This document shows positions 27,805-46,946 of a stretch of DNA of 64,000 nt, piece by piece (the first letter of the stretch is position 1; every line of letters starts with the position of its first letter). Origin of the DNA: Streptomyces sp. NBC_01294. Lineage in GTDB: Bacteria > Actinomycetota > Actinomycetes > Streptomycetales > Streptomycetaceae. Location: the NCBI RefSeq assembly GCF_035917235.1, contig NZ_CP108423.1, forward strand, positions 7,097,501 through 7,161,500. Reading direction: 5' to 3'. Both the position numbers and the translations under genes were made by a program. The notes beneath the pieces are model-generated. The model was not told where the DNA came from. It saw nothing but the letters and a program-made list of their open reading frames with translations, and searched no databases.

Positions 27805-27805
27805 G

Positions 27806-30924: not shown

Positions 30925-32088
30925 TCAGGCGGCCGGCTTGCCGGGCTGGTCGTGGGTCGAGCAGTGGATGCCGCCGCCTCCCGAGGCGATCGTGTCGATC
31001 ACGACCGGCACGATGTCCCGCTTCGGGAAGTGCTCCTGCAGGATGGCGCGGGCCCGGTCGTCGGCCTTGCGGTCCCCGAACCTGGGCATGAAGACGGCAT
31101 CGTTGGCGATGTAGAAGTTGGCGTAGGTCGACACGAAGTCGTCGCCCTCGCCCGTGATCCTGTTCAGGTCGGGCTGCGGCAGATCGATGACCTCGAAGCG
31201 CCGGCCGCGGGCGTCCGTCGTCTGCGACAGGACGGACTTCGCCTGGTCGGCGGAGCGCGACCAGGAGTCCGGCGGGGTACCGGGGTGTGCGCGGTCCAGC
31301 AGGACCACACCGGGTGCGGTGAAGCGAACGAGGCTGTCCACGTGGGCGTCCGTGATGTCCTCGCCGCGTACGCCGGCCAGCCACACCACCTTCTCGACAC
31401 CCAGGGTCTGCTTGAGCTCCGCCTCGATCGTGTCCCGGCTCTTGCCCCGGTTGCGGTTGTCGTTGACGATCGAGCTCTCGGTGATCAGCAGGGTGCCCTC
31501 GCCGTCGGGCTCGAAGGATCCGCCCTCCGCGACCAGCGGAGCCTGGATCCGGGGGATCCCGTACTTCTGGAGCAGGGTGCGGCCGACCACCCCGTCGTTC
31601 TTGTGCTCCTGCTTGTTGCCCCAGCCGTTGAAGTTGAAGTCGACCCCGACGACCTTGCCGTCCTGCTCGACGAAGACGGGGACGGTGTCGCGGGCCCAGA
31701 GGTCGTCGACGGCCAGCGGGATCACCTCGACCTGCGAGCCGCACGCCCGCTGCGCCGCGTCCGCCTGGTCGGGCCGGGCCATCATGACGACCGCCTCGTA
31801 CTCCCCGACGGCCCGCGCGATCCGCGCGATGTCCTCGCGTACGTAGGGCAGGTCTCCCTCCCAGACCGACGACAGCGCCGGCCAGGACATGAACGTACGG
31901 GTGTGGCTCTCCCACTCGGCGCCCAGCCGGCGCTTGCCGCCCGCGGTGGCGGGCTGGGAGGGCGCGCCGGTGGCACCGGCCGGTGCTCCGGCGTCGGAGG
32001 GTCCGCAGGCCGAGGAGCCGAGGACGGCCGCGCCGATTCCGGCGAGGGTGCGAAGGACGGTCCGACGCGTGGGGGGAGTGAAGGACAC
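30925..32088 (-). CDS. Agmatine deiminase family protein 1, Tat-exported lipoprotein
   Basis: A 387-residue agmatine deiminase/PPAD-family enzyme, which removes the imino group of guanidino compounds as ammonia. GTG at 32088 has GGAG upstream and gives a Tat signal (TRRTVLRTL) with a lipobox-like SSAC; TTG 32181 or ATG 32124 are alternatives. Catalytic features are intact: DDLWARD, DAHVD (His and Asp) and the nucleophile Cys 376 in GGGGIHC. It is probably anchored outside the membrane. Its promoter carries the shared palindrome (32245-32273), giving a leader of about 150 bases. Whether agmatine or another guanidine is the substrate is unknown. Confidence 0.9.
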   Translation of the reverse strand: MSFTPPTRRTVLRTLAGIGAAVLGSSACGPSDAGAPAGATGAPSQPATAGGKRRLGAEWESHTRTFMSWPALSSVWEGDLPYVREDIARIARAVGEYEAVVMMARPDQADAAQRACGSQVEVIPLAVDDLWARDTVPVFVEQDGKVVGVDFNFNGWGNKQEHKNDGVVGRTLLQKYGIPRIQAPLVAEGGSFEPDGEGTLLITESSIVNDNRNRGKSRDTIEAELKQTLGVEKVVWLAGVRGEDITDAHVDSLVRFTAPGVVLLDRAHPGTPPDSWSRSADQAKSVLSQTTDARGRRFEVIDLPQPDLNRITGEGDDFVSTYANFYIANDAVFMPRFGDRKADDRARAILQEHFPKRDIVPVVIDTIASGGGGIHCSTHDQPGKPAA

Positions 32089-32244
32089 GGAGACTCCGAT
32101 CGTGGACTGGCGGAAGGGATGCATGCGGCCAGGGCGGGCGCGACGGTGGCGATAGGCCGACAAACCGGTCCTTACGGACAAGGGTGCGCACTCCGCACCG
32201 CGAACGGCCGGTATGCGCGAAAAGCGATGCGGCCAGGTGTCGCC

Positions 32245-32273
32245 ACTCTGACACTGACTGGAATTTCAGTCAA
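32245..32273 (-). promoter_or_regulatory. Regulon promoter A (deiminase 1), palindrome in spacer
   Basis: On the minus strand: TTGACT (32273-32268), exactly 17 bases, CAGAGT (32250-32245). The palindrome TGACTGAAATTCCAGTCA spans the -35 and spacer, so a bound repressor would block polymerase. It overlaps the stop codon of the TetR gene. Same design as promoters B to E. Confidence 0.8.
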
Positions 32274-32869
32274 TCCGCAACTGATGGGAAACCGAGTCGG
32301 CTCAATTCCACTCCGATCGCCTCGCGCATCAGGACGTGGGCGTGCTTCAGGGAGAGCAGTCCGCTGAGCCAGCGGACGCTGAGCCCTTCCAGCAGGGCGG
32401 TCAGCCGCTCTGCGGCGGCCGTGACGGCGGCGTGCGGCGCGGCGGGGCAGAGCTCGGCGAGGGGGGCTGCGACTTCCGCCACCCAGGCGGCACCCGCCGC
32501 GGCCAGGTCGTCCCGCAGTTCGGGATCGAAGACCGTGTGGGCCCGGAGTTCTCCCCAGGCCGTGCTGTTCTCGCGCACCTCGGGGAGGTCCTGGAACTCC
32601 CTCAGCAGGGTCTGCTCCAGGAGCCGGCGCGGATCCGAGGGGCGGGCCTCGGCCTCGCTCCCCGACGCCGCGGTGTAGCGGTCCGCCCGGTCCCCGATGA
32701 AGGCCAGGGCGTGCCGCAGGATGCCCGGCCGACCCTCGAAGTGGTAGTAGACCAGGGCGGTGGACACGCCGGCCTCGGCCGCCAGGTCCGCCACCCGCAG
32801 TCCTCGGACGCCCTGACGTGCGATGACGCGTGCGGCGCCCTCGAGGATGGCCCGTCTGCGGTCGGTCAC
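32270..32869 (-). CDS. TetR family regulator 1 of the deiminase/urease regulon
   Basis: A 199-residue TetR protein with N-terminal helix-turn-helix (ADLAAEAGVSTALVYYHFEGR, about residues 22-42) and a BetI-like C-terminal domain (EVRENSTAWGELRA, ALLEGLSVRWLSG). I chose GTG 32869 because AGGAGGG lies 8 bases upstream and it aligns with the start of TetR 2; upstream starts at 32902/32908 lack a site. It is very similar to the TetR at 36191-36772, notably in the DNA-reading helix, so both probably bind the same palindrome. One copy of that palindrome lies 44 bases upstream of its own start. Confidence 0.92.
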   Translation of the reverse strand: MTDRRRAILEGAARVIARQGVRGLRVADLAAEAGVSTALVYYHFEGRPGILRHALAFIGDRADRYTAASGSEAEARPSDPRRLLEQTLLREFQDLPEVRENSTAWGELRAHTVFDPELRDDLAAAGAAWVAEVAAPLAELCPAAPHAAVTAAAERLTALLEGLSVRWLSGLLSLKHAHVLMREAIGVELSRLGFPSVAD

Positions 32870-32911
32870 TGTGTGATCCCTCCTGCCGTGTGCGTCTCGC
32901 ATTGTCACACA

Positions 32912-32940
32912 TTGACTGAAAATTTAGTTAGCGGCACGAT
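32912..32940 (+). promoter_or_regulatory. Regulon promoter B (kinase; also TetR 1 on the other strand)
   Basis: TTGACT (32912-32917), 17 bases, CACGAT (32935-32940) with palindrome TGACTGAAAATTTAGTTA (32913-32930). It lies between the divergent TetR 1 and kinase genes and probably controls both. Confidence 0.75.
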
Positions 32941-32979
32941 GCGCCCAGGTCCTCGCCGCATCGTTGAAAGAGCAACCGC

Positions 32980-34757
32980 ATGTCCGAGCAGCTCCCCGGC
33001 ATACAGCCCACCACCACGGCGCTGTCCGCCGACGACCCCCACGGGATCGGTGGCTACCGCCTCCACGCTCGTCTCGGCTCCGGCGGCATGGGAGTGGTCT
33101 ACCTGGCGTACACGCCCGGTGGCCGCCCCGTCGCCCTGAAGGCCGTCCGCAGGGAATTCGCCGCGGATCCCGAGTTCCGCGAACGCTTCGCCCAGGAGGT
33201 GGCCAGCGCCCGCCGGATCCACGGCCTGTTCACCGCCCAGGTGGTCGACTCCGGCGTCGACCACCGCACCCCTTGGCTCGCCACCGCCTACGTGCCCGGC
33301 CCCTCGCTGCACGAGGTGGTGCGGCGGCACGGACCCCTGCCGGTGCGCACCGTCCTGCTGCTCGTCGCGGGCATCGCGGAGGCGCTCCAGGCCATCCACC
33401 GGGCGGGCGTCGTCCACCGGGACCTCAAGCCGGCCAACGTGCTGGTCGCGGGGGACGGGCCCCGGGTGATCGACTTCGGCATCGCGCGCGCCGCCGACGC
33501 CGCGGCGCTCACCGGCACGGGCCTGCGGATCGGCACCGCGGCCTTCATGGCGCCCGAACAGGCGCTGGGCCTCCAGGTGACGCCGGCCACCGACGTCTTC
33601 GCGCTCGGCACGCTGGCCGCCTACGTGGCGGGCGGCGCGACGCCCTTCGGGAACGGGTCGGAGTCCACGGCCCTGTACCGGATCGTCCACGAGCGTCCCG
33701 ACCTCACCCACGTACCCCGTGACCTGCACGGACTCATCTCATGGTGTCTGGCCAAACGCCCCGAGGACCGCCCTGCGACCGCCGAGCTGATCGCGTCCGT
33801 GCACGCGCACCCCGTGGTGGGCTCCCGGCCGGAGTTCACCGACGGCTGGCTGCCCAGCCCGGTCCGGGACGAGGTCGGAGGCCGGGACGGCGCCGCCCGG
33901 CCCGCCGCGGCGTACCTCCGCGCGACCGGCGCGGCGTCCGCGCACCCGGGCCCGGCCGCCGGAATCCCGGCGGCACCGCCCGCCCCCGCGCCTGCCGGGG
34001 TCGATTCCTGCGCCCCGACGGCCGCGGCCGCGTACCGGGATCCGGCCCCGGCGGCGCCCGTTCCCGCCCCGGCCAGGTCCGCCCCGGCTCCTGCGCAGGG
34101 CCCGGTCCCGCCCCCCACACACAGGTCGCCCCACCAGTACCGGTACCGGCACCCGCGCCGGTCTCCGCGCCCGTCCCCGCCGCCTCGGTGCCGGTGGAGG
34201 CCGCTGCCCCGGGGTCCGGTCACCGTGCGTCCCGGCACGGGCGGCGGCGCCTGCCCGCGGTGGCCCTGGCCGTGGTCGCCACCCTGCTGGCCTGCGCCGG
34301 AGCCGTGTACTACCTCGACGATCCCGACGGGGAGGGGGCGGGCCCCGACGCCGGTCCCGCCGCCCGATCGGCGCCGCCCACGGCCCCCGCCTTCCTGCCC
34401 GGCTACGCGAACGCCGAGCTCACCGCCCCCGATTCCGGCTACGAGTTCGATCTGAAGGCGGGGAAGGTGGTGGCCGCGGAGACGGCCACCTGGTACCTGG
34501 CGCGCGACGGTCAGGCGTTCGTGCCGTCCGAGGAGTCGGACGCCTTCGTCGCCGACGGCGGGGAGCTGACCGCGGCCGATTGCGTGCACGGCATCGAGAC
34601 GCGACCGGCCGCCGCCCTGCCGTTCGGTGGGCTCGCCAAGGCGCGGCCGTTCTGCGTGAGCAGTCCGGACCGGAGCGAGATCGCGATCGTCCGACTGGTC
34701 GAGGCCGCGGCCGACGGATCGGTCACGATCACCGTGGACCAGTACCGCCGGAGCTGA
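32980..34757 (+). CDS. Receptor-type Ser/Thr protein kinase, frameshifted
   Basis: A PknB-type kinase: GSGGMGVVYLA Gly loop, Lys in VALKAV, HRDLKPANV catalytic loop, DFGIAR and APEQ. After about 270 residues a Pro/Ala-rich linker follows. The frame that starts at 32980 turns into Arg/Pro-rich nonsense beyond the C6 run at 34111-34116 and stops at 34455. In another frame the linker continues (PVPVPAPAPVSAPVP), then a membrane segment (LPAVALAVVATLLACAGAVYYL) and an external domain with two cysteines, ending at 34757. One extra C in the run would join them into a protein of about 592 residues. It sits inside the deiminase regulon. Confidence 0.85.
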
Positions 34758-34828
34758 ATTCCCTGGCTATGGCCGGGCCCGGTCCCGGCGTCCCGGGTAG
34801 GCGACGCCGCGCCGTGGAGCCGGTCGTC

Positions 34829-34857
34829 TTGACTGAATTTTCAGTTAACGCAAAGAT
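34829..34857 (+). promoter_or_regulatory. Regulon promoter C (deiminase 2)
   Basis: TTGACT (34829-34834), 17 bases, AAAGAT (34852-34857); palindrome TTGACTGAATTTTCAGTTAA covers the -35 and spacer. It lies 39 bases before the deiminase 2 start codon. Confidence 0.82.
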
Positions 34858-34895
34858 GCCGAGTCATCCCGCCCGTTCACCCCTCAGGGAGACCC

Positions 34896-36065
34896 ATGGA
34901 CATGCCCAGCACCACCCGCCGTCGGCTGCTCCGGTTCGGGGCGGCGGCGCTGCCGCTCGCCGCCCTCGGGCCGGCCTTCCCCGCCACCGCGCAGGCGGAC
35001 GCCACCCGCGAGACCGGCGCCGCAGCCCTGCGGATGCCCGCGGAGACCGGCCGCCACCTCCGTACCTACATGGCCTGGCCCGCCCTCTCCTCCGTCTGGG
35101 ACAGCAAGCTCGACGCGGTGCGCGGAGACATCGCCGACGTCGCGTACGAGATATCGCGCTTCGAGCCGGTCGTGGTGCTCGCGCGCCCCGGTCAGGCCGC
35201 CGAGGCCCGCCACCGCTGCGGGCGCGGCGCCCACCACGCCATCGACGTCATCGAGATCGCCAACGACGACCTGTGGATCCGCGACTTCGGCCCCACTTTC
35301 GTGGTGGGCCCGGGAGCCGTCGCGGGCGTGGACACCCACTTCAACGGCTGGGGCAAGACGGGCACGCCGTACGCCCAGCCCTTCGCCAACGACGCCGCGG
35401 CGGCCGCCGTCCTCCTCGACGAGTACCAGGTGCGCCGGATCCCGGCGGGATTCGTCGGTGAGGGCGGCTCGCTGGAGGCCGACGGCGAGGGAACGCTGCT
35501 GGCCACGATCAGCTCGCTGGTGAACGCCAACCGCAACCCGGGCATGAGCCAGGACCAGGTCGAGCAGGCCGTGAAGGCGGCGCTCGGCATCGACAAGGTC
35601 ATCTGGGTGCCCGGTCTGGCAGGTCAGGACATCACCGACTGCCACATCGACTGCCTGGCCCGCTTCACGGCTCCGGGGCGGGTCATCCTGGACAAGCCCG
35701 GAGCCGGCGCGGACCGGAAGTGGGTCGCCGTCTACGAGGAGACGAAGCGGGCCCTGGAGAGCGCCACCGACGCCCGTGGCCGCAGTCTCGCCATCACGGA
35801 ACTGCCCGGCCCCGACCGCCGCAGCATCCGCGGCGGCGGAGCGGAGTTCCTGGCCTCCTACACCAACTACTTCACCGCCAACGGCGCGGTCATCGCCCCG
35901 CAGTTCGGCGACGGCCCCGCCGACGCTCTGGCCCGTGCGATCCTGCAGGCCGCCTATCCCGGCCACCGCCTGGTCCAGGTGGGCATCGACAACATCGCGG
36001 CCGGTGGCGGCGGCATCCACTGCGCCACGCAGTCGCACCCGGCCGCCACCCCGCCGGAGGTGTGA
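34896..36065 (+). CDS. Agmatine deiminase family protein 2, Tat-exported
   Basis: A 389-residue deiminase with a Tat signal (TTRRRLLRFGAAALPLAAL) ending near ATAQA, so secreted. Active-site features: DDLWIRD, DCHID and Cys 376 in GGGGIHC. GGGAGA precedes ATG 34896; ATG 34902 would also keep the twin arginine. It is followed by TetR 2 on the same strand, probably in one transcript. It resembles deiminase 1 throughout, pointing to an ancient duplication with the neighbouring TetR. Confidence 0.92.
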   Translation: MDMPSTTRRRLLRFGAAALPLAALGPAFPATAQADATRETGAAALRMPAETGRHLRTYMAWPALSSVWDSKLDAVRGDIADVAYEISRFEPVVVLARPGQAAEARHRCGRGAHHAIDVIEIANDDLWIRDFGPTFVVGPGAVAGVDTHFNGWGKTGTPYAQPFANDAAAAAVLLDEYQVRRIPAGFVGEGGSLEADGEGTLLATISSLVNANRNPGMSQDQVEQAVKAALGIDKVIWVPGLAGQDITDCHIDCLARFTAPGRVILDKPGAGADRKWVAVYEETKRALESATDARGRSLAITELPGPDRRSIRGGGAEFLASYTNYFTANGAVIAPQFGDGPADALARAILQAAYPGHRLVQVGIDNIAAGGGGIHCATQSHPAATPPEV

Positions 36066-36190
36066 TGTCCACCGGGCCCCGGCAGCGGGAGCGAACCGCG
36101 GCCGGTGGGCGATCGGCGCCCGCAGGGGCCCGTACGTCCGGTGACGGGTCGCCCGCACCCCCTCCGGAACGCCCCGGTAAGGTGCGGGCC

Positions 36191-36772
36191 ATGGCGTCTC
36201 GCAGCACTCAGATCCTCGAAGCGGCCGCCCGGGTGATCGCCCGGCGCGGCGTCCGCGGGCTGCGCGTGGAAGAACTCGCGGCCGAGGCCGGCGTCTCCAC
36301 CGCCTTGATCTACTACCACTTCAAGGACCGTACGGGGGTCCTGCGCCAGACCCTCGAATTCATCAACGACCGCGCCGAGCGCTACACCACGGACCGGGAC
36401 CCGGACGATCCGCCGCTCACCCCCCGGGAGGAGCTGGAGGAAACGCTCCTGCTGGAGCTCCAGGACACCGTGGAGGTACGGGAGAACAGCTCGGCCTGGG
36501 GTGAACTGCGGGCGAGCGCCGTCTTCGACGAGGTGCTGCGCGAGGATCTCGCCAGGGCCGCCCTGGTATGGGTCCAGGAGGTCGCCGCGCTGCTGGGCCA
36601 GGTCCAGCCGATGGCGCCGGCCTCGTCGCTGGCCGCCGCGGCCGAACGGCTCACCGCCCTGCTGGAAGGGCTCAGCATGCGCTGGCTCAGCGGTGGCACC
36701 GGAATCGGTCACGCGCGGGAGCTGATGCGCGGCGCGATCGACGCCGAATTGGCCGGGCTCCAGCAGCACTGA
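36191..36772 (+). CDS. TetR family regulator 2 of the deiminase/urease regulon
   Basis: A 193-residue TetR with helix-turn-helix EELAAEAGVSTALIYYHFKDR and C-terminal EVRENSSAWGELRA and LLEGLSMRWLSG, nearly the same blocks as TetR 1. ATG 36191 follows AAGGTG; an in-frame GTG nine bases earlier is possible. It lies 125 bases after deiminase 2, likely co-transcribed. Two similar regulators for one operator could act as a heterodimer, respond to different ligands, or be redundant. Confidence 0.92.
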   Translation: MASRSTQILEAAARVIARRGVRGLRVEELAAEAGVSTALIYYHFKDRTGVLRQTLEFINDRAERYTTDRDPDDPPLTPREELEETLLLELQDTVEVRENSSAWGELRASAVFDEVLREDLARAALVWVQEVAALLGQVQPMAPASSLAAAAERLTALLEGLSMRWLSGGTGIGHARELMRGAIDAELAGLQQH

Positions 36773-36850
36773 CACGGGCGTTCCCGGACGCTGATCGACC
36801 CCGCACGGCCCTGTCCTTCCGTGGGACGGCACGTTTCGCCGCCCCATCTA

Positions 36851-36879
36851 TTGACTGAATTTTTAGTCAATGCCAGAGT
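36851..36879 (+). promoter_or_regulatory. Regulon promoter D (urease genes)
   Basis: TTGACT (36851-36856), 17 bases, CAGAGT (36874-36879). TTGACTGAATTTTTAGTCAA is the most symmetrical copy. A transcript from here would have a leader of about 280 bases before ureAB, containing a small reading frame at 37098. Confidence 0.84.
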
Positions 36880-37097
36880 GAGGGCGCGAGCCGGCCGCGG
36901 CACTGCGGGGCCCGTAGGGCCCGCCCCGCGGACCCGGCCCCGTCCCCGGGGCCGCGCCCCCGGATCGCTCTCGTTCCTCGTCTTCTTCGCCGCGCGCACA
37001 AAGCCCCCACCTCGCGGTCCGTGCGCCGCGCCCACGCACCCCCGACGGCGGAGCGCCGGCCTCCGTGGCCCGCCGCATCCGCCTTCCGGAGGAAGGA

Positions 37098-37175
37098 ATG
37101 ATCATGAAGTTCTCGATCGGCCGGGGTCTGTGCCCCGCCGCCGGGGCGCACTCCCGGTGGGCCTCATGGCCCTGA
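37098..37175 (+). CDS. Short leader reading frame overlapping the urease start
   Basis: Twenty-five codons from ATG 37098, directly behind a strong GGAGGAAGG site, ending TGA at 37173-37175, 10 bases past the ureAB ATG in another frame. The peptide starts MIMKFSIGRG and resembles nothing I know. Its ribosome site is much better than that of ureAB, so ribosomes finishing it may restart at ureAB. It might instead be a remnant of a longer N-terminus. Confidence 0.45.
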   Translation: MIMKFSIGRGLCPAAGAHSRWASWP

Positions 37176-37870
37176 CCCCCACCGAACGCGACCGGCTCCT
37201 GCTGTTCACCGCCGCGGAACTGGCCCGGGCCCGACACGCACGCGGCCTGCGGCTCAACGTTCCGGAGGCGACCGCCGTGATCGCCGACACGGTGTGCGAG
37301 GCGGCTCGTGACGGCGTCCGCCTCGCCGACGCCCTCGCGCGAGGCCGAAGCGTCCTCGGCCCGGACGACATCCTGCCGGGCGTCGTCGACATCGTCACCG
37401 AGGTCATGGTCGAGGCGGTGTTCGAGGACGGAACCCGGCTCGCGGTGATCAGTGAGCCCTTCGGCGAGCTGGACCGTGACGACGGCGCACCGGGCGCCGT
37501 ACTGCCCGCCTCGGACAGCGTCGAGGCACGTGCCCCCGTCGTGACCCTCGTGGTGAGCAACACCGCGGCGGTGCCGGTGAGCGTGACCTCCCACTTCCAC
37601 TTCTTCGAGGCCAACCCGCGCCTGAGCTTCGACCGTGCCATGGCGTACGGGATGCGCCTGGCAGTCGCGGCCGGGTCGTCCACCCGGTTCGACTCCGGAG
37701 CCACCGTGGAGGTGGGCCTCATCCCCATCGGTGGTGACCGGATCGCGATCGGTTTCGCCGGCTTGGTCGACGGCCCGCTCGACGCCCCCGGCGCGAAGGC
37801 CGAAGCCCTGCGCAGGGCCGCGGCCTGCGGCTACCTCGGTGCGGGCGCCCCGGAAGGAACCGCGACATGA
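37166..37870 (+). CDS. ureAB: Urease gamma-beta fusion subunit (UreAB)
   Basis: A 234-residue fusion of urease gamma (LTPTERDRLLLFTAAELARARRARG-like start, RLNVPEATAVIADTVCEAARDG) and beta (about residues 110-220: VVTLVVSNTAAVPVSVTSHFHFFEANPRL). The beta motif GSHFHFFE-like SHFHFFEAN is intact. Start ATG 37166 gives the usual gamma N-terminus. Its stop overlaps ureC by ATGA. It scaffolds the nickel enzyme that splits urea to ammonia and carbamate. Chaperone genes ureDEFG are absent from the window. Confidence 0.9.
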   Translation: MALTPTERDRLLLFTAAELARARHARGLRLNVPEATAVIADTVCEAARDGVRLADALARGRSVLGPDDILPGVVDIVTEVMVEAVFEDGTRLAVISEPFGELDRDDGAPGAVLPASDSVEARAPVVTLVVSNTAAVPVSVTSHFHFFEANPRLSFDRAMAYGMRLAVAAGSSTRFDSGATVEVGLIPIGGDRIAIGFAGLVDGPLDAPGAKAEALRRAAACGYLGAGAPEGTAT

Positions 37871-39615
37871 GCAGACCCACCCGACACGCCGATCACTGCG
37901 CACCGGGCAGCCGGCACATCGACCCGCACGAGTACGCCTCCGTCTTCGGCCCGCGCGCCGGGGACCGGGTGCGTCTCGGTGACTCCGGGCTGACGGTGCG
38001 GGTGGAGTACGACGCGCAGAAGCCCGGTGACGAGTTCCTGGCCGGTTTCGGCAAGACCGCCCGGGACGGCCTGCACCTGAAGGCCGCCGCCGTCCGCGAG
38101 ACCTGCGACGTCGTCATCAGCAATGTCCTGGTCATCGACGCGGTCCTGGGCATCCGCAAGGTGTCGATCGGTATCCGCGAGGGCCGTATCCACGCGATCG
38201 GGCGGGCCGGCAACCCGGACACCCTCGACGGCGTCGACGTCGTCGTCGGCACGGGTACCTCGATCGTCTCCGGCGAGGGCCTGATCGCCACCGCCGGCGC
38301 CGTCGACACCCACGTGCACCTGCTCTCCCCGCGCATCATGGAGGCCTCGCTCGCCGCGGGCGTCACCACGGTCATCGGTCAGGAGTTCGGCCCGGTGTGG
38401 GGCGTCGGCGTCAACTCCCCGTGGGCGCTGAAGCACGCCTTCAACGCCTTCGATGCCTGGCCGGTGAACATCGGTTTCCTGGCCCGGGGTTCCTCTTCGG
38501 ACGCCGCTCCGCTGGTGGAGGCCCTGGCCGAGGGCGGTGCCTGCGGTTTCAAGGTGCACGAGGACATGGGCGCTCACACCCGCGCCCTGGACACCGCCCT
38601 GCGGGTGGCCGAGGAGTACGACGTACAGGTCGCGCTGCACAGTGACGGCCTCAACGAGTGTCTCTCCGTCGAGGACACCCTGCGGGTCCTGGACGGCCGC
38701 ACGATCCATGCCTTCCACATCGAGGGCTGCGGCGGCGGGCACGTGCCCAACGTGCTGAAGATGGCGGGCGTGCCGAACGTCATCGGCTCCTCCACCAACC
38801 CGACCCTGCCCTTCGGCCGGGACGCGGTGGCCGAGCACTACGGCATGATCGTCTCCGTTCACGACCTCAAGCCCGACCTCCCGGGCGACGCGGCCATGGC
38901 CCGCGACCGGATCCGGGCCGGCACCATGGGCGCCGAGGACGTGCTGCACGACCTCGGGGTGATCGGCATCACCTCCTCCGACGCCCAGGGCATGGGCCGG
39001 GCCGGCGAGACGATCCGCCGCACCTTCGCCATGGCCGCCAAGATGAAGGGCGAGCTGGGCCCCCTGGCCGGCGACGGCGAGGGCGACGACAACGCCCGGG
39101 TCCTGCGCTACATGGCCAAGCTGACCATCAACCCCGCCATCGCCCACGGCCTGGCCCACGAGATCGGCTCCATCGAGACCGGCAAACTCGCCGACATCGT
39201 CCTGTGGCGCCCCCAGTTCTTCGGCGCCAAACCGCAGCTCGTCCTCAAATCAGGCTTCCCCGCCTACGGCGTCACCGGCGACCCCAACGCCGCCACCGAC
39301 ACCTGCGAACCCCTCGTCCTCGGACCGCTCTTCGGCGCCCACGGCGCCGCCCCCGCCGACCTCTCGGTGGCGTTCGTGAGCCGCGCCGCGGCCGAGTCCG
39401 GCTCCTTCGGAGCCCCGTACGACGCCATGGCCACCCGCCGCCGCCGGGTCGCCGTGCGGGGGACCCGGGGCATCGGCCCCAAGGACATGGTCGGCAACGA
39501 CCGCCTCGGAGAAGTCGACGTGAACCCACGGACCGGTCTCGTCACGCTCGACGGAGAGCCCCTGCGCTCCGAGCCGGCGCAGCAGGTCTCCCTGAACCGC
39601 CTCTACTTCCTCTGA
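37867..39615 (+). CDS. ureC: Urease alpha-like subunit (UreC), non-canonical
   Basis: A 582-residue amidohydrolase, slightly longer than classical UreC. Nickel ligands are all visible: HVH (about 149/151), carbamylated Lys in GFKVHED (about 229), His in ALHSDG (about 258) and FHIEG (about 284), Asp in TSSDAQGMGR (about 372). The mobile-flap Cys-His of classical ureases (VCHHL) reads SVHDL, so Cys is replaced by Val while the catalytic His remains. GFKVHEDMGAH also differs from the usual GLKIHEDWGAT. It overlaps ureAB. Activity on urea is plausible but a related ureido compound may be the real substrate. Confidence 0.9.
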   Translation: MSRPTRHADHCAPGSRHIDPHEYASVFGPRAGDRVRLGDSGLTVRVEYDAQKPGDEFLAGFGKTARDGLHLKAAAVRETCDVVISNVLVIDAVLGIRKVSIGIREGRIHAIGRAGNPDTLDGVDVVVGTGTSIVSGEGLIATAGAVDTHVHLLSPRIMEASLAAGVTTVIGQEFGPVWGVGVNSPWALKHAFNAFDAWPVNIGFLARGSSSDAAPLVEALAEGGACGFKVHEDMGAHTRALDTALRVAEEYDVQVALHSDGLNECLSVEDTLRVLDGRTIHAFHIEGCGGGHVPNVLKMAGVPNVIGSSTNPTLPFGRDAVAEHYGMIVSVHDLKPDLPGDAAMARDRIRAGTMGAEDVLHDLGVIGITSSDAQGMGRAGETIRRTFAMAAKMKGELGPLAGDGEGDDNARVLRYMAKLTINPAIAHGLAHEIGSIETGKLADIVLWRPQFFGAKPQLVLKSGFPAYGVTGDPNAATDTCEPLVLGPLFGAHGAAPADLSVAFVSRAAAESGSFGAPYDAMATRRRRVAVRGTRGIGPKDMVGNDRLGEVDVNPRTGLVTLDGEPLRSEPAQQVSLNRLYFL

Positions 39616-39668
39616 GGCTCCCCTCCCCGGTGCGCACCCGCCCCTCCGATATCCGCGCACGTCAGGCC

Positions 39669-39697
39669 TTGACTGAATTTTCAGTCGGGTGGAAGAC
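39669..39697 (+). promoter_or_regulatory. Regulon promoter E (deiminase 3 and peptide importer)
   Basis: TTGACT (39669-39674), 17 bases, GAAGAC (39692-39697); TTGACTGAATTTTCAGTCGG. It lies 28 bases before the deiminase 3 ATG and probably drives a long operon to 46176. Confidence 0.8.
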
Positions 39698-39724: not shown

Positions 39725-40831
39725 ATGGCCGAATACCGAATGCCTGCCGAGTGGTCCGAGCACGAGGGCTGCCTCATGGCCTGGCCCACCCGCGAGGACC
39801 TCTGGGGGAGCGTCCTGACCGAAGCGAAGGAGGAGTACGCCAACGTCGCCCGCGCCATCGCCGCCTTCGAGCCCGTGACGATGGTCGCCCCGCCCGGCCA
39901 CGGCGCGGACGCCCGCGACCGCTGCGGGGACGGCGTCACCGGCGTCAGCGGCGTCACGGTGATCGAGCTGCCGCTCGACGACTCCTGGTTCCGCGACTCC
40001 GCCCCGCTCTTCGTCCTCGACGGGGACGGCAACCGCGCCGGCGTCGACTTCCGCTTCAACGCCTGGGGCGGCAAGCACCACCCCTTCGAGTCCGACGACC
40101 GGATCAGCGCCCTGCTGCTGGACCACGTCGGGGCGGACCGGATCGCCTCCGACATGATCCTCGAAGGCGGCGCGATCACCGTCGACGGCGAGGGCACGCT
40201 GATCACCACCGAGCAGTGCCTGCTGCACCCCAACCGCAACCCCGGCATGAACCGGGGCGAGATCGAGGCCGAGCTGAAGTCCCGGCTCGGCGTCACCAAG
40301 GTCATCTGGCTGCCGTACGGCGGTCTCCTCGACACCGAGACCGACGGCCACGTCGACGGTGTCTGCGCCTTCGCCGCCCCCGGCACGGTCGTCGTCTCCC
40401 TCCCGGACGACCCCGACCACCCCGACTACGCCCGGATGCGCGCCAACCGCGCCGTGCTGGAGGCCTCCACCGACGCCCGCGGCCGCCGCCTGGAGATCAT
40501 CGACGTCCCGCAGACCGTCTTCGCGGACCTCGCCGACGGCGAGATCGAGGTGTCCTACCTGAACTACTACGTCGCCAACGGCGGCGTCGTCGTCCCGGTC
40601 GCCGGGCTGCCCCAGGACGAGGCCGCCCTCGCCGTCATCGCCTCGGCCCACCCCGGTCGCAAGGTCGTCGGGGTGCGGGCCCTGGCCATCGCGTTCGGCG
40701 GCGGCGGCGTCCACTGCATCACCCAGCAGATCCCCGCCGCACGCCCTGTACGCCCTGCAACCCCCGCACGCCCCGCCCGCCCCGCCCGCCCCGCACACCC
40801 CGCGGGCACCACCGCCGACGCCACCGTCTGA
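39725..40831 (+). CDS. aguA: Agmatine deiminase 3 (cytoplasmic)
   Basis: A 368-residue deiminase with no signal sequence, beginning YRMPAEWSEHEGCLMAWP, which is the classical agmatine deiminase N-terminus. DDSWFRD, TDGHVDG and Cys 331 in GGGGVHC complete the site. It would convert agmatine to N-carbamoylputrescine. The last 30 residues are a Pro/Ala/Arg repeat. ATG 39725 lies just after the promoter -10; an in-frame GTG at 39689 overlaps it and is excluded. The peptide importer starts 88 bases further, in the same transcript. An N-carbamoylputrescine amidase is not in the window. Confidence 0.93.
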   Translation: MAEYRMPAEWSEHEGCLMAWPTREDLWGSVLTEAKEEYANVARAIAAFEPVTMVAPPGHGADARDRCGDGVTGVSGVTVIELPLDDSWFRDSAPLFVLDGDGNRAGVDFRFNAWGGKHHPFESDDRISALLLDHVGADRIASDMILEGGAITVDGEGTLITTEQCLLHPNRNPGMNRGEIEAELKSRLGVTKVIWLPYGGLLDTETDGHVDGVCAFAAPGTVVVSLPDDPDHPDYARMRANRAVLEASTDARGRRLEIIDVPQTVFADLADGEIEVSYLNYYVANGGVVVPVAGLPQDEAALAVIASAHPGRKVVGVRALAIAFGGGGVHCITQQIPAARPVRPATPARPARPARPAHPAGTTADATV

Positions 40832-40919: not shown

Positions 40920-42587
40920 ATGACCACCTCCCCACCCCGCACGAGCAGACGCCCCCGACGCCGGGCCGGCCGCCGCACCGCGACCCTCACCGCCGCCGTC
41001 CTGACCTCCTTCGCCGTGCTCGGGGCCTGCTCGGGCCCGCCCAAGGGCAACGGCGGCGGCGTCACCGACGTCAGCCTCTCCGTCTCCACACCCCCGGCCC
41101 GCGGCGAGATCGACTCCTTCAGCTGGGCCGTCTACGCCGAGCCGCCCACCCTCGACTACACGGTCGCCTTCGACTACCCGCAGAACACCATCCTGTCCAA
41201 CGTGTGCGAGAGCCTGATGCGCTGGACGCCGTCGCTCACCACGGAGCCCGGCCTCGCCCAGAAGGCGACCAACCCCGACCCCACCACCTGGGTCTACGAC
41301 CTCCGCCCCGGCGTCCGTTTCCACGACGGCAGGGAGATGACCGCCGACGACGTCGTCTTCAGCCTCGGCCGCCAGATGGACCCCGACAACGCCGCCGCCT
41401 GGGCCCAGGTCTTCCAGAACGTCACCGCCGTCACCAAGACCGGCCCGCTCCAGGTCACCGTCAAGCTCAAGCAGCCCGACTCCCAGTTCCCGCAGTACAT
41501 GGCCACCGCCGCCGGCGTGGTCGCCTCCAAGGCGGGCGTCGAGGCAGCGGGCAAGGACTACGGCACCACCGGCGGCCTCGCCTGCACCGGCCCCTTCCAA
41601 CTCGGCACCTGGAACAAGGGCCAGTCCATCGAACTGGACCGCTTCGACAGCTACTGGGGAACCAAGGCCAAGTCCAAGAAGGCCGTCTTCCGCGTCCTGA
41701 CCGATCCCTCCGCCCGCACCAACGCCATGCTCAGCGGCGAGGTCGACGGCGGCTACCTCATCCCCACCGAGAGCTACGCCCGCCTGCGCGGCAGCGGCAC
41801 CGGAACCCTCTACTTCGGTGAGGGCCTGAGCACGGTCAACGTCAACATCACCAACATGCAGGGCCCGCTCGGCGACGTCCGCGTCCGCCGCGCCCTCTCC
41901 CTCGCGCTCGACCGCACCGGATTCGTCAAGGCCGGCCTCGGCGGCGCGGGCACTGTCACCAACTCCCTCACCACCCGGGCCGCCTGGGCAGCCGCCCCCG
42001 AGCACACGCTCAAGACCGCCTTCGACAACCTCCCGCCCACTGGCCAGGACATCGACAAGGCCAAGGCGCTCATCGAGGAGGCCGGCGCCACCGGCAAGAC
42101 CCTGACCGTGGCCACCAGTTCCATAGGCCAGGACGTCTCCCTCCTCGCCACCGCCGTCCAGGCCGCCGGCAGCCGGATCGGCCTGGACATCCGGCTCAAG
42201 ACCATCGCCCCCAACGCCTTCACGGCCCTGTTCACCGACCCGCAGGCGCGCGAGGGCATCGACATGTTCCCGCTCACCTACTACGACTCGATCACCGACC
42301 CGCTCGACCTGCTGCAGAACTTCAAGACCGGCGCGTACATGAACTTCGCCGGCTACAGCGACCCCCAGTACGACGAACTCGTCGACCAGGCCTCCGCCCT
42401 CTACCCGGCCGAGCAGCGGCTGGCGATCGAGGCCAAGCTCCAGCACCACGCCTCGGAGCAGCTGCTGTGGATCCCCGTCGCCGAATGGCCGACCGCGGTG
42501 TTCCTGGGCAAGCGGATCACCGGCGCCCCCACCTCGATCTCGTACATGTACTACCCGTGGGCCGCCGACGTGGGGGCCTCCGAGTGA
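40920..42587 (+). CDS. Peptide/opine-type ABC importer binding lipoprotein (family 5)
   Basis: A 555-residue SBP_bac_5 protein. A twin-Arg-rich basic start and hydrophobic run end in lipobox LGAC with Cys 37. Family features: EPPTLDY near residue 75, LRPGVRFHDGREMTADDVVFS and the C-terminal ADVGASE end. AAGAGAG precedes ATG 40920. It captures peptides, nickel chelates or small cationic solutes outside the cell. Its stop overlaps the permease start (GTGA). Being behind deiminase 3, its ligand may be agmatine-related. Confidence 0.92.
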   Translation: MTTSPPRTSRRPRRRAGRRTATLTAAVLTSFAVLGACSGPPKGNGGGVTDVSLSVSTPPARGEIDSFSWAVYAEPPTLDYTVAFDYPQNTILSNVCESLMRWTPSLTTEPGLAQKATNPDPTTWVYDLRPGVRFHDGREMTADDVVFSLGRQMDPDNAAAWAQVFQNVTAVTKTGPLQVTVKLKQPDSQFPQYMATAAGVVASKAGVEAAGKDYGTTGGLACTGPFQLGTWNKGQSIELDRFDSYWGTKAKSKKAVFRVLTDPSARTNAMLSGEVDGGYLIPTESYARLRGSGTGTLYFGEGLSTVNVNITNMQGPLGDVRVRRALSLALDRTGFVKAGLGGAGTVTNSLTTRAAWAAAPEHTLKTAFDNLPPTGQDIDKAKALIEEAGATGKTLTVATSSIGQDVSLLATAVQAAGSRIGLDIRLKTIAPNAFTALFTDPQAREGIDMFPLTYYDSITDPLDLLQNFKTGAYMNFAGYSDPQYDELVDQASALYPAEQRLAIEAKLQHHASEQLLWIPVAEWPTAVFLGKRITGAPTSISYMYYPWAADVGASE

Positions 42588-43543
42588 GCTTCGTCCGATT
42601 CGCCGCACGACGGCTCGCGGAGATGGCCGCCACCCTCCTCGCGGCCTCGTTCGTGGTCTTCGGCGCCATGTACCTGGCGCCGGGCAGCCCGGCGAGCTTC
42701 CTGCTCGCCGGCCGGTCGGCCTCCCCGGAGGCGCTCGCCGCGATCAACGCCCAGTACCACCTGGACGACCCGTTCCTCGTACGGTACTTCCGCTGGCTCG
42801 GCGAGGTGGTGCAGGGCGATTTCGGGCGCTCCATCACCTACCGCACCGACGTCTCGCGCCTCCTCGCGGACCGGCTCCCGGTCACCCTGCTGCTGATCGC
42901 CATGGCCCTCGTCGTGGTCGTGGCCGTCGGCCTGCTGCTCGGCCGGATCGCGGCCGTCCGCGGCGGAGCCACCGACTCCACCATCCTCGTCACCACGACG
43001 TTCGCCGTCGGCACCCCCTCCTTCGTCGCCGCCGTCCTGCTCCAGGGTCTCTTCGCCGTCCAGCTCGGCTGGTTCCCCAGCAGCGGCGCCGGCGACGGCC
43101 TCGTCGACATGCTCTGGCACCTCACCCTCCCCGCGGTCGCCCTCGCCCTCTACCTGATCGGCATGCTCGCCCGGGTCACCCGCGCGGCCATGCTCGAAGC
43201 CCTCGACAGCGAACACGTCACCGTCGCCCGCAGCCGCGGTGTCCCCGAACGCCAGGTCATCCGGCGCCACGTGTTCCGCAACTCCCTCGGGACGGTCCTG
43301 ACCACCGGCGGACTCATCGTCTCCACCCTCCTGGTGTGCACGATCCTCGTCGAGACCGCCTTCAGCATCGGCGGGATCGGTCAGCTCCTCGAACTGTCCA
43401 CCACCACCAAGGACTTCCCGACCGTCCAGGCGATCTCCCTGATCATCGTCGCCCTCTTCATGATCGTGAACCTGGTCGTGGACCTGCTCCTGCCCCTGGT
43501 CGACCCACGGGTCACCCTCGGAACGAGGGGGGCCGCCGCGTGA
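42584..43543 (+). CDS. ABC importer permease (DppB/OppB type)
   Basis: A 319-residue permease with about six membrane segments, starting FVRFAARRLAEMAATLLAASFVVF, the DppB N-terminus, and with the EAA loop RSRGVPERQVIRRHVFRNSL. GTG at 42584 overlaps the preceding stop; an earlier in-frame ATG lies inside the previous gene. Its own stop overlaps the next gene's GTG. Confidence 0.94.
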   Translation: MSFVRFAARRLAEMAATLLAASFVVFGAMYLAPGSPASFLLAGRSASPEALAAINAQYHLDDPFLVRYFRWLGEVVQGDFGRSITYRTDVSRLLADRLPVTLLLIAMALVVVVAVGLLLGRIAAVRGGATDSTILVTTTFAVGTPSFVAAVLLQGLFAVQLGWFPSSGAGDGLVDMLWHLTLPAVALALYLIGMLARVTRAAMLEALDSEHVTVARSRGVPERQVIRRHVFRNSLGTVLTTGGLIVSTLLVCTILVETAFSIGGIGQLLELSTTTKDFPTVQAISLIIVALFMIVNLVVDLLLPLVDPRVTLGTRGAAA

Positions 43544-44394
43544 CCGCCGTCCTCACCCGCCGCCCCGGCCTCTCCCGGATCCGGGCCGCCGGCTCCCCGC
43601 TCCACCTCGTCTGTCTGGCGCTCGTCGCCCTGGTCGTGCTCGCCGCGCTGTGCGCGCCCTGGCTGGCACCCCACGACCCCAACGCCGTGGACCTGGGCAA
43701 CGCCCTCGCCGCGCCCTCCGCCGCACATCCCCTCGGTGTGGACGCCGCCGGCCGCGACACCCTCTCCCGGCTGCTCCTCGGCGCGCGCACCTCGCTGCTC
43801 GGCCCGCTGGGCGTCGTCGCCTTCTCCACCGTCGTCGGCATCGCCATCGGGATGGCCGCGGCCTGGCGCGGCGGCTGGCTTGACTCCGTCCTGTCCCGCA
43901 GCACCGAACTGGTCTTCGCCTTCCCCGGCATGCTGCTGGCGATCCTGATCATCTCCGTCTACGGGGAGGGCCTGCTCGCCCCCGTCATCGCCCTCGCCGT
44001 CGCCTACCTGCCCTACGTCAGCCGCCTCACCCGCTCGCTGGTCCTCGCCGAACGGGCCCGTCCCTACGTGAGCGCATACCAGGTCCAGGGCCACTCGGCC
44101 GTACAGATCTGCCTGCGCCACATCCTGCCCAACATCGCCCCCGTCGTCCTCGCCCAGTCCACGATCAACTTCGGCTACGCCCTCATGGACCTCGCCGGGC
44201 TGTCGTTCCTCGGACTCGGCGTCCCCGCCCTCACCCCCGACTGGGGCCGCATGGTCTTCGACGGCCAGACCGCCATCCAGCACGGCTACCCGCTGTCGGC
44301 GATCCTGCCCTGCGTCTTCATCGTGCTGACCGTGGTCGCGTTCAACGTGGTGGGCGAGCGGTGGGCCGACCGTGTCGCCAGGAGAGACCGATGA
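43540..44394 (+). CDS. ABC importer permease (DppC/OppC type)
   Basis: A 284-residue permease. AALCAPWLAPHDPNAVDL and LGVDAAGRDTLSRLLLGARTSL are the DppC signature; the EAA loop is YQVQGHSAVQICLRHILPN. GTG at 43540 and ATGA at its end both overlap neighbours, so the five-gene importer is tightly coupled. GLSFLGLGVPALTPDWGRM follows near the end, as usual. Confidence 0.94.
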   Translation: MTAVLTRRPGLSRIRAAGSPLHLVCLALVALVVLAALCAPWLAPHDPNAVDLGNALAAPSAAHPLGVDAAGRDTLSRLLLGARTSLLGPLGVVAFSTVVGIAIGMAAAWRGGWLDSVLSRSTELVFAFPGMLLAILIISVYGEGLLAPVIALAVAYLPYVSRLTRSLVLAERARPYVSAYQVQGHSAVQICLRHILPNIAPVVLAQSTINFGYALMDLAGLSFLGLGVPALTPDWGRMVFDGQTAIQHGYPLSAILPCVFIVLTVVAFNVVGERWADRVARRDR

Positions 44395-45386
44395 AGCCGA
44401 CGCACACGCTCGACATCCAAGGGCTGAGGGTCACCCTCCCCGGCACCGCCCGGCCCGTCCTCGACGGCGTCGACCTCACCGTCGCCGCCGGCGAGACCGT
44501 CGCCCTCGTCGGCGAGTCCGGCGCGGGCAAGACCATCACCTCGCGCAGCGCGCTGCGCCTGCTGCCGCCCGGCGCCGTCGTCGAAGGCTCGGTCCGGGTC
44601 GGCGGCGAGGACGTGCTCGCCATGGACCCCGCCCGGCTGCGCGGCGTACGCGCCGGCACGGTCGCCATGGTCTTCCAGGACCCGCGCGCCGCCGTCAACC
44701 CGCTGCGCCGCATCGGCGACTTCCTCACCGAGAGCGTCACGCTCACCGGCGCGATGAGCGCGGCGGACGCCACGGCCCGGGCGGTCGATCTCCTGCGGGC
44801 CGTGGGCCTGGACGGGTCCGTCCTGCGCAAGTACCCCGGCCAGGTCTCCGGCGGCATGCTCCAGCGCGTCGTGATCGCGGCGGCCCTCATGGGGGATCCC
44901 GCGCTGCTGCTCGCCGACGAGCCCACCACGGCCCTCGACGTCACCAGCCAGGCCGAGGTCATCGCCCTCCTGGCCGGGCTGCGCGAACGGTTCGGCACCG
45001 GCCTGCTGTTCGTCACCCACGACCTCGACCTCGCCGCGGCCATCAGCGACCGGGTCTACGTCATGTACGCCGGGCGCATCGCGGAGACCGGCCCGGCCGA
45101 GGTGCTCTTCACCCGCCCGCGCCACCCCTACACAGCCGCCCTCCTCGCCTCCAGCCCGCGGATGGACGGCCCCCGGGGCAGGCTCGCCGCCATCCAGGGC
45201 CAGCCCCCGGACCTGCGCGAGCCGCTGCTCGGCTGCGCCTTCGCCGCCCGCTGCCCGCTGGCCACGGAGGTCTGCGACGAGCGGGCCCCGCTGCCTTCCG
45301 CCGCGCCGGACCGGCCGGACCACCGGGCCGCCTGCCACCACAGCGACCGGCTCGAAGGGAGCACCGTCGATGTCCTCGAAGCCTGA
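44391..45386 (+). CDS. ABC importer ATPase 1 (DppD/OppD type)
   Basis: A 331-residue ATPase with Walker A GESGAGKT, Q loop MVFQDPRAAVNP, signature VSGGMLQRV, Walker B LLLADEPTTALD and switch His VTHD. The C-terminal oligopeptide extension has the four-cysteine-type motif GCAFAARCPLATEVC, which in this family can bind an iron-sulfur cluster. ATG 44391 lies in the ATGA overlap. Confidence 0.95.
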   Translation: MKPTHTLDIQGLRVTLPGTARPVLDGVDLTVAAGETVALVGESGAGKTITSRSALRLLPPGAVVEGSVRVGGEDVLAMDPARLRGVRAGTVAMVFQDPRAAVNPLRRIGDFLTESVTLTGAMSAADATARAVDLLRAVGLDGSVLRKYPGQVSGGMLQRVVIAAALMGDPALLLADEPTTALDVTSQAEVIALLAGLRERFGTGLLFVTHDLDLAAAISDRVYVMYAGRIAETGPAEVLFTRPRHPYTAALLASSPRMDGPRGRLAAIQGQPPDLREPLLGCAFAARCPLATEVCDERAPLPSAAPDRPDHRAACHHSDRLEGSTVDVLEA

Positions 45387-46176
45387 GCACGTACTGGAGG
45401 TCAGGGGGCTGCACCGCGCCTTCGGAGCCGTCCGCGCGGTGGACGACCTGTCCTTCGCGCTCCCCGAGGGCGGATCGCTGGGCATCGTGGGGGAGTCCGG
45501 CTCCGGCAAGACGACCACGGCCCGCATCGTCGTCGGGCTGGAGCACGCCGACGAGGGGGAGGTGCTCGTACGCGGCCGGTCCCGGACGGGCCGCTCCCGC
45601 GGACGGGCCGCCCGGCTGGCCCGCGCCCGCGAGATCCAGATGGTCTTCCAGGACCCGTACCTCTCCCTCGATCCGCGCACGAGCGTCGAGGCGGCCCTGC
45701 GCGAAACCCTGAGCCTGCACTTCCCCGGCCGCGACCACGCGCAGCGGATACGCGAACTGCTCGACCAGGTCGGCCTGGGCACCCGGGCCGCCGACGCCCT
45801 GCCGCGCCGGCTCTCCGGCGGCCAGCGCCAGCGCGTCGCCATCGCGCGGGCCCTCGCCGTCGAACCGGCGGTCCTCGTCCTGGACGAAGCGGTCGCCGCG
45901 CTCGACGTCTCCGTGCAGGCCCAGATCCTCAACCTGCTGGCCGACATCAGGGAGCAGACCGGGATCGGCTACCTCTTCATCACCCACGACCTCGGGGTCG
46001 TCCGGTGCGTCACCGACGAGATCGTCGTGATGCGCCACGGCGCAGTCGTCGAGCAGGGCGCCACGGCGGAGGTCCTGGCCGCGCCCCGGCATCCGTACAC
46101 CCGGCTGCTGCTCGAGTCCGTGCCCCGTCCGGGCTGGGATCCGGAGGCGATCGCCGCGGCGCGGCGGGCGCTGTAG
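45370..46176 (+). CDS. ABC importer ATPase 2 (DppF/OppF type)
   Basis: A 268-residue ATPase: Walker A GESGSGKT, MVFQDPYLSLDPR, LSGGQRQRV, VLVLDEAVAALD (the usual Ser-Ala replaced by Val-Ala after DEA), ITHD. The usual DppF C-terminal domain is shortened. It overlaps ATPase 1 by 17 bases and closes the operon. Confidence 0.95.
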   Translation: MSSKPEHVLEVRGLHRAFGAVRAVDDLSFALPEGGSLGIVGESGSGKTTTARIVVGLEHADEGEVLVRGRSRTGRSRGRAARLARAREIQMVFQDPYLSLDPRTSVEAALRETLSLHFPGRDHAQRIRELLDQVGLGTRAADALPRRLSGGQRQRVAIARALAVEPAVLVLDEAVAALDVSVQAQILNLLADIREQTGIGYLFITHDLGVVRCVTDEIVVMRHGAVVEQGATAEVLAAPRHPYTRLLLESVPRPGWDPEAIAAARRAL

Positions 46177-46235: not shown

Positions 46236-46871
46236 TCAGGCGCCGGCGGCGAGCGTACGGATCAGCGTGCGCAGCACCGGCTCCGGGTCGACCTCGGCAC
46301 CCAGCGACTCCACGGCGGCCAGGCCGTCCACGGCGGCGGCCACGGCTTCGCCGAGCAGGCGAGGATCGACGTCCCCGCCCCGCTCGTCGGCCAGCACCCG
46401 GAACAGCGCGACGAAGCAGCCGCGCCAGCGCCGGTACTCCGCCTCCAGGCTCTCCCGGACCCGCGCGTCGTTGAGGGCGTGCCAGTGCAACGCCGAGTGG
46501 AGGTGCGAGAGTTCCGCGCCTTCGGGCCGGGAGAGCAGTTCGACCACCCGCTCGGCGCGCTCCGCGAACGACCCGGGACCGGCGACCGCCTCCTCCAGCG
46601 GATGGATCCACTCCGGGCGGATGTCCGTGATGACCGCCAGGACGAGGTCCGTCCGGTCCTGGAAGTGGTAGTGGCACATCCCGTGCGAAACGCCGCACAG
46701 CGCGGCCACGTTGCGCGTGGTGAACCGTTCGCTCATCCCGCCCGCGAGCAGCGTCCGCGCGGCGGCGATCAGCCGGGCCCGGGTCTGCTCGCCCTTGGCC
46801 GAGGCCCGGGGCCGCCGTGCGGGGGCAGGGGGAGCGGACAGGTCCGGTGGGTTCTTCGCGGAAGCTGCCAT
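46236..46871 (-). CDS. TetR family regulator 3 (BetI-like)
   Basis: A 211-residue TetR with an extended Pro/Ala-rich N-terminal arm, helix-turn-helix TTRNVAALCGVSHGMCHYHFQDR at about residues 50-72 and a BetI-type C-terminal domain (HWHALNDARVRESLEAEYRRWR). It is distinct from TetR 1 and 2. It is divergent from deiminase 4; the palindrome CCGAGCGCTTGG in the gap is its probable operator. BetI-like proteins often bind choline or polyamine-like ligands, which would suit a deiminase target, but that is inference. Confidence 0.9.
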   Translation of the reverse strand: MAASAKNPPDLSAPPAPARRPRASAKGEQTRARLIAAARTLLAGGMSERFTTRNVAALCGVSHGMCHYHFQDRTDLVLAVITDIRPEWIHPLEEAVAGPGSFAERAERVVELLSRPEGAELSHLHSALHWHALNDARVRESLEAEYRRWRGCFVALFRVLADERGGDVDPRLLGEAVAAAVDGLAAVESLGAEVDPEPVLRTLIRTLAAGA

Positions 46872-46946
46872 GGCGTCACTCTAACGAGCCCGCGGGCCGC
46901 CACCTGCGGCTTTCCCCGATCTTCCGGAATGACCTCGTCCAAACTA

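Follow-up and report, generated by a model that had tools for sequence, protein, structure and literature searches.

A palindrome shared by deiminase, kinase and urease promoters points to a probable TetR-type regulon for guanidino-compound nitrogen in Streptomyces

In Streptomyces sp. NBC_01294, a 64,000-nucleotide stretch of DNA (the window; C1:7097501-7161500 in the 8.5-Mb genome) carries a cluster of deiminase, kinase, TetR and urease genes in which one palindrome recurs. The palindrome, TTGACTGAAWWTTCAGTCAR, overlaps the -35 hexamer and the spacer of TTGACT-N17-cAgagT(G) promoters that lie before deiminase and urease genes. Since sites of this kind are found at such genes across the genome and the genus, co-occur with one type of TetR protein and share a conserved promoter layout, we consider it very likely that they mark a TetR-type repressor regulon for guanidino-compound nitrogen, in which TetR dimers over the -35 would block polymerase and a guanidino or ureido ligand would release them. 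Judged from sequence, it is very probable that a few related repressors bind the palindrome.

A search of the window with TTGACTGAATTTTCAGTCAA (up to three mismatches) found five places, starting at 32254, 32912, 34829, 36851 and 39669, each with one to three mismatches; 100 dinucleotide shuffles of the window gave no match. The five recurring palindromes proposed in the initial annotation were thus recovered. Four of its coordinates stand, and the first, given as 32245, is 9 bp off the true start at 32254, where the promoter reads on the minus strand. As it had also stated, TTGACT, a 17-bp spacer and a -10 hexamer are present at all five sites in the sense of the target gene, the hexamers being CAGAGT (dei1), CACGAT (kinase), AAAGAT (dei2-TetR2), CAGAGT (ureABC) and GAAGAC (dei3-ABC transporter; ABC, ATP-binding cassette). 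Pfam agrees with the proposed targets and finds in the window three PAD_porph deiminases, two TetRs with BetI-type C-terminal domains, a protein kinase, a fused UreAB, a UreC and a peptide-type binding protein. The site at 32912 does precede the kinase gene, and it also precedes the start of TetR1, which had been missed. The cluster is laid out as follows (Tat, twin-arginine translocation):

30925..32181, minus strand: dei1, PAD_porph deiminase (Pfam); N-terminus resembling a Tat lipoprotein signal (by eye); Ile at position -4 relative to the catalytic His
32254..32273, minus strand: predicted operator 1, over the -35 of the dei1 promoter; TTGACT-N17-CAGAGT
32270..32908, minus strand: TetR1; TetR_N and TetR_C_6; 62% identity with TetR2
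32912..32931, plus strand: predicted operator 2, flanked by TetR1 (minus strand) and the kinase gene (plus strand); plus-strand promoter TTGACT-N17-CACGAT
32980..34757, plus strand: Ser/Thr protein kinase split over two frames, with the catalytic domain in 32980-34455 and the membrane and outer parts in 33741-34757
34829..34848, plus strand: predicted operator 3, ahead of dei2-TetR2; TTGACT-N17-AAAGAT
34896..36065, plus strand: dei2, PAD_porph deiminase (Pfam); Tat-like signal (by eye)
36191..36772, plus strand: TetR2; TetR_N and TetR_C_6
36851..36870, plus strand: predicted operator 4, ahead of ure(AB)C; TTGACT-N17-CAGAGT
37166..37870, plus strand: UreAB, fused urease gamma/beta subunit (Pfam, curated models)
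37867..39615, plus strand: divergent UreC; 48% identity to the UreC at 6.95 Mb (taken as canonical); presumed nickel-ligand and catalytic-His positions kept, pocket changed
39669..39688, plus strand: predicted operator 5, ahead of dei3; TTGACT-N17-GAAGAC
39725..40831, plus strand: dei3, cytosolic-type PAD_porph deiminase (Pfam); Glu four residues before the catalytic His
40920..46176, plus strand: peptide/nickel-type ABC transporter; binding protein 40920-42587, two permeases, two ATPases

TetR2, downstream of dei2, probably forms one operon with it, and the ABC transporter (40920..46176) probably belongs to the dei3 operon.

Searched with the 20-mer at up to three mismatches, the whole genome contains seven sites: besides the five of the window there are two close together, at 1461060 and 1461137. 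The reversed control pattern had no match in the same 8.5 Mb. These two sites are flanked by a third TetR gene on one side and, on the other side and the opposite strand, by a deiminase gene followed by a carbon-nitrogen hydrolase gene (an aguA-aguB-like pair, here the core locus), and by eye a weaker, half-matching site can be seen between the two. All seven sites adjoin regulon-type genes. The random recurrence away from such genes that the initial annotation had named as speaking against it was not seen, either in the seven sites or in the co-occurrence of motif and TetR across the genus. Its core gene set holds, and the regulon is wider than claimed: it takes in the third TetR, the aguA/aguB-like genes and, in relatives, an NCS1 permease.

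TetR1 and TetR2 match TetR_N and TetR_C_6 above cut-off. They had been described as a near-identical pair; they are in fact 62% identical over 189 residues, and the genome holds three such TetRs, not two, the third (at 1.46 Mb) having 59-62% identity with TetR2. The helix-turn-helix stretch AEAGVSTALIYYHF is nearly invariant among 15 TetR homologues. Among solved structures, 2g3b, a putative TetR protein, scores best. We infer that TetR1, TetR2 and the third TetR bind the palindrome.

The genus was surveyed in 121 genomes, our own included, using the 18-bp core with up to two mismatches and TetR homologues with E up to 1e-35. The motif is present in 25 genomes and the TetR in 25, with both in 24 (Fisher p 4.6e-23, uncorrected for kinship). 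One genome (G114) has a TetR reading frame holding a TGA, and no motif. The reversed control gave ten matches in eight of the 121 genomes; nine of these were located (in 16 loci from seven genomes) and all nine overlap real sites, the tenth, outside that overlap check, being in a genome without motif or TetR (G109). On the strength of the shuffles, the whole-genome search, the reversed control and the survey, both chance and a repeat were rejected as the source of the palindromes.

For the gene context of the sites, 40 stretches were fetched by motif from 23 of the 24 other motif-bearing genomes (without G103, and with one of the five sites of G042). Sites that are orthologous between related species do not count as independent, and for that reason the percentages given here and the Fisher p suggest more events than there were. 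In these stretches, the window and L008, there are 75 sites with up to two mismatches, and within 500 bp of 69 of them lies a regulon-type gene, coding for a deiminase, TetR, UreAB, kinase, AguB-like protein or permease. The remaining six comprise two that precede a permease-deiminase pair with a weak match (L054, L091), one that directly abuts a deiminase gene (L076), one beside TetR2 at a contig end (L081) and two that fit no regulon-type gene (L074, L085). The L085 site, at 7665, has two mismatches and lies in a region of 64% GC in G084, a genome without a TetR of this type.

Twelve loci are unlinked to a TetR match (on another contig or more than 100 kb away); this count leaves out L085, for its lack of a TetR in the genome, and L067, whose cluster is split over two contigs with the site at a deiminase gene. 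At 11 of the 12 the site stands at a deiminase or aguB-like gene (L058, L063, L065, L068, L071, L073, L077, L078, L083, L084, L092). Approached from the TetR side, 77 of the best 80 of 266 relatives have a site at their locus, all 77 of them in Streptomyces or Kitasatospora; some of these loci share contigs with the motif-fetched set (e.g. L104, L110, L133). A regulon-type gene lies within 500 bp of 153 of the 160 sites in the TetR-fetched loci, and no target gene was recognised at the other seven (L095, L099, L107, L112, L118, L128, L134).

For the promoter layout, 191 distinct sites were read in the direction of the gene that they precede (142 deiminase, 26 UreAB, 18 kinase and 5 aguB-like). 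Conservation is concentrated in the palindrome, in a TG behind it (positions 21-22; 58% and 71%) and in a block at 24-30 that reads C, A (84%), g, a, g, T (81%), G (71%). The -10 frame A-N3-T occurs at spacer 17 in 77.5% of the sites, compared with at most 7.9% at any other spacer from 12 to 23. TTGACT retains its initial T in 86% of the sites, whereas the mirror position has G in 72%: the palindrome's left half doubles as the -35.

In the mechanism that we propose, dimers of TetR1, TetR2 and the third TetR, which have nearly the same helix-turn-helix, would bind the palindrome and shut out RNA polymerase until a guanidino or ureido ligand (agmatine or a relative) frees them. Derepression would switch on dei1 and dei2, the deiminases presumed to be exported, the cytosolic enzyme dei3 together with its ABC importer, the kinase, the divergent urease and the aguA/aguB-like pair. 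Guanidino compounds would be deiminated outside the cell by the exported enzymes, products or substrates would be taken in, possibly via the dei3-linked ABC transporter, and the cytosolic deiminase, the AguB-like hydrolase and the urease-like enzyme would complete the release of ammonia and CO2, with the amine salvaged and the TetR repressors sensing substrate or product. This points to a route of guanidino-nitrogen scavenging that begins outside the cell, and a precise operator, three candidate repressors and a short gene list make the regulon testable in few experiments.

The principle is that of AguR of P. aeruginosa, a TetR repressor of aguBA that occupies the stretch between -35 and -10 until agmatine releases it (PMC4287709). 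Common to both are a TetR-family repressor, an operator within the promoter and targets that encode a deiminase and a carbamoyl-amide hydrolase (PMC4287709). The two differ in content, in how widely operators are spread and in the number of paralogues: here three TetR paralogues go with many scattered promoters, and the targets include exported-type deiminases, a urease-like enzyme, a kinase and an ABC transporter. The likeness is one of principle, drawn from descriptions of the two systems.

The genome encodes six deiminases and three UreC proteins. In ten aligned deiminases, D91, E147, H209, D211 and C331 (dei3 numbering; the catalytic Cys, His and Asp and the guanidine-binding acids) are invariant, and the residue four positions before the catalytic His divides the ten into two groups. 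This residue is Glu in dei3 and the core AguA, Ile in dei1, dei2 and dei4, and Gly in dei5; the three Ile-type enzymes carry Tat-like signals. The same split is seen among 167 distinct deiminases of the fetched loci, with Ile in 131, Glu in 31 and Val in one (the pattern was not found in four), and a Tat-like motif, scored with a crude pattern and uncertain start codons, occurs in 75 of the 131 Ile deiminases and in none of the 31 Glu deiminases. In the agmatine deiminase of Medicago, the residue at this distance from the His is Asp220, which holds the terminal amine of the substrate (PMC6447857). Opposite this plant Asp, HMMER places the Glu of dei3 and the Ile of dei1, whereas MAFFT has a gap there and sets the Asp of EDIT opposite the dei3 Glu; since the two programs place the residues differently, the correspondence depends on the alignment. 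TIGR03380 (agmatine deiminase) and TIGR03381 are among the best matches for the deiminases and the AguB-like protein.

The second notable component is the urease. UreAB passes PRK13192 (302.7 against 243), and UreC of the window passes the broader PRK13207 (751.7 against 354) and falls 29 bits short of the urease alpha equivalog TIGR01792 (651.4 against 680). The UreC at 6.95 Mb, 48% identical to it, passes TIGR01792. Residues H149, H151, K229, H258, H284, H332 and D372 of the window UreC align with a PDB urease and with the canonical-type paralogue; we take these seven to be the nickel ligands, the carbamylated Lys and the catalytic His. The pocket, in contrast, is altered in all seven divergent UreC proteins aligned: the flap Cys is Val or Ala, an Ala is Gly, GGGTGP has become GQE[FI]GP and there is a four-residue gap, the roles of these positions, including that of the flap Cys, being our assumption.

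UreC of the divergent type (at least 79% identity) is present in at least 31 of 61 genomes, a lower bound since a cluster severed by a contig end (G039) was missed. All 31 also have a 46-50% identical UreC elsewhere, and 26 of the 30 remaining genomes have only that second kind. A deiminase gene lies within 1.5 kb of the divergent ureC in 30 of 30 fetched loci (one per genome, window included). The palindrome is found in three of the 30 (L173, which is the window, L174 and L177); 26 others resemble L026, the locus at 2.42 Mb in our genome, and have a dei5-like gene, and L202 shows a third arrangement. Searched up to 1.5 kb from ureC, the 26 L026-type loci show no palindrome (three mismatches), and the whole-genome search found none at 2.42 Mb, so that a shared operator at this second ure(AB)C locus was rejected. 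Because the L026-type loci and L202 pair deiminase and urease without the palindrome, the link between the two enzymes exists apart from the present regulon. A second streptomycete ure(AB)C type tied to deiminases makes the question of its substrate directly testable.

ureABC of S. coelicolor is SCO5525-5526, with SCO5527 counted among the homologues of the arginine decarboxylase pathway (PMC3293853), and one cluster of S. coelicolor and S. avermitilis is reported to consist of ure(AB)C only (PMC2492869). L026 has the same gene types as SCO5525-SCO5527, namely ure(AB), ureC, a deiminase gene and a TetR gene; the L026-type loci differ from the window in having a different TetR as well as in lacking the palindrome. 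From gene order, L026 is presumably the counterpart of SCO5525-SCO5527. No description of the operator string, the SCO genes or such a regulon was found among the matches listed in open-access full text, a literature outside which most subscription journals lie, and within it the initial statement that no regulon of this content has been described holds.

Inverted repeats are visible by eye in L026 between ureAB and the NCS1 permease gene (TTAGAG-5-CTCTAA and TTGAG...CTCAA, at 9843-9859 and 9914-9928) and are perhaps the operator of that locus's own TetR. The window ureC (37894-39611) and the L026 ureC are 95.3% identical in DNA over about 1.7 kb with diverged ends, compared with only 78% for ureAB, which looks like gene conversion.

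Several observations weigh against the regulon as proposed. The -10 pattern is carried by the deiminase and urease promoters; it is weak at the kinase sites (A 50%, T 39%) and, at 17 bp, absent at the aguB-like sites (none of five has A at the second position) and at the core-pair sites of our own genome. One genome (G084) has a motif site and no TetR, and the one of the 12 unlinked loci not counted above (L074, two mismatches) has its site before a metallo-beta-lactamase-fold gene. Three of the 80 TetR-fetched loci, one of those from Kitasatospora (L106) and both of those from Streptacidiphilus (L161 and L165), are without a site; the Streptacidiphilus pieces are short, L161 stopping just behind the TetR gene and L165 extending over 4.8 kb. 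Moreover, the exported-type deiminases seem, in an alignment-dependent comparison, to be without the acid that holds the amine of agmatine in plant enzymes. All six deiminases score 225-340 bits on TIGR03380, under its cut-off of 381.8, and the AguB-like protein scores 227 bits against 410.25. With these scores below the curated cut-offs, assignment to an agmatine regulon is tentative. Given the Ile at the presumed amine-acid position and the scores below the agmatine deiminase cut-off, the exported group may act on another guanidino compound than agmatine.

It is quite possible, if short of probable, that the palindrome marks an AguR-like, agmatine-to-putrescine regulon in which urease only clears urea from arginase or agmatinase under the same nitrogen signal. 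The aguA/aguB-like pair of the core locus, the operator at unlinked aguB-like genes, the two arginase-family matches in the genome and the kept metal-ligand positions of the urease would all fit. However, both arginase-family matches fall outside the window and the core locus. The genome also encodes a canonical-type UreC, and the regulon UreC is of a different clade that adjoins a deiminase gene at every one of the fetched loci. In addition, deimination followed by AguB gives no urea (PMC12283126; PMC9397018).

A further possibility, tentative and on the unlikely side, is that ure(AB)C hydrolyses the ureido product of the deiminases (N-carbamoylputrescine or another substituted urea), giving a two-step conversion of guanidine to amine, ammonia and CO2. 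Indirectly consistent with this are the co-regulation in the window, the constant adjacency to deiminase genes, the presumed metal ligands kept within an altered pocket and the narrow shortfall on the urease alpha equivalog. Ureases are normally very specific for urea, however, the window UreC does pass the broader urease alpha model, the genome also has an AguB-like hydrolase, and the adjacency could serve plain urea. In its full form, in which ure(AB)C would be a nickel-dependent urease-fold hydrolase of substituted ureas and not a urea-urease, switched by TetR together with the exported deiminases that feed it, the idea is doubtful; if true, it would add a new nickel-dependent second step to the breakdown of guanidino compounds. 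The same adjacency argument led to AguY, a noncanonical N-carbamoylputrescine amidohydrolase whose consistent deiminase neighbour was taken as an argument for its role (PMC12283126). As in AguA-AguY, a hydrolase here regularly adjoins a deiminase; AguY is a GatA-related amidase, whereas the present neighbour is a urease-type amidohydrolase known from its sequence.

As for the regulator, co-occurrence is no proof of binding, and the palindrome could belong to a protein other than these TetRs. We regard this as very unlikely, given the near-perfect co-occurrence and the divergent TetR-site-deiminase arrangement found in genomes that have only one such TetR (L075, L086, L088). An alternative in which the palindromes would be no operators but a mobile or spreading repeat duplicated along with the cluster, as several sites within one cluster of paralogous genes might suggest, is scarcely credible, since sites also precede unlinked aguB-like and deiminase genes, conservation in the 191 sites centres on the palindrome, the following TG and the -10, and 24 of 25 motif-bearing genomes have the TetR.

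Returning to the genes of the proposed TetR regulon in the window, the kinase reading frame switches near 34100, in a C-rich stretch, which the initial annotation had missed, and a relative in L062 has a single frame; the window has either a real frameshift or a sequencing error. The ABC transporter might or might not import nickel for the urease: NikA-, Opp2B- and NikC-type models are the best NCBIfam matches for three of its five subunits but score far below their cut-offs. Beyond the cluster, at 46236-48189, a fourth deiminase (47035, Tat-like) adjoins another TetR (46236, minus strand) without the palindrome. Upstream, at 25636-30754, lie two neighbouring ABC transporters. The membrane domains are fused in both, the first also has a C39 peptidase domain, and we annotate the two as putative bacteriocin-type export genes.

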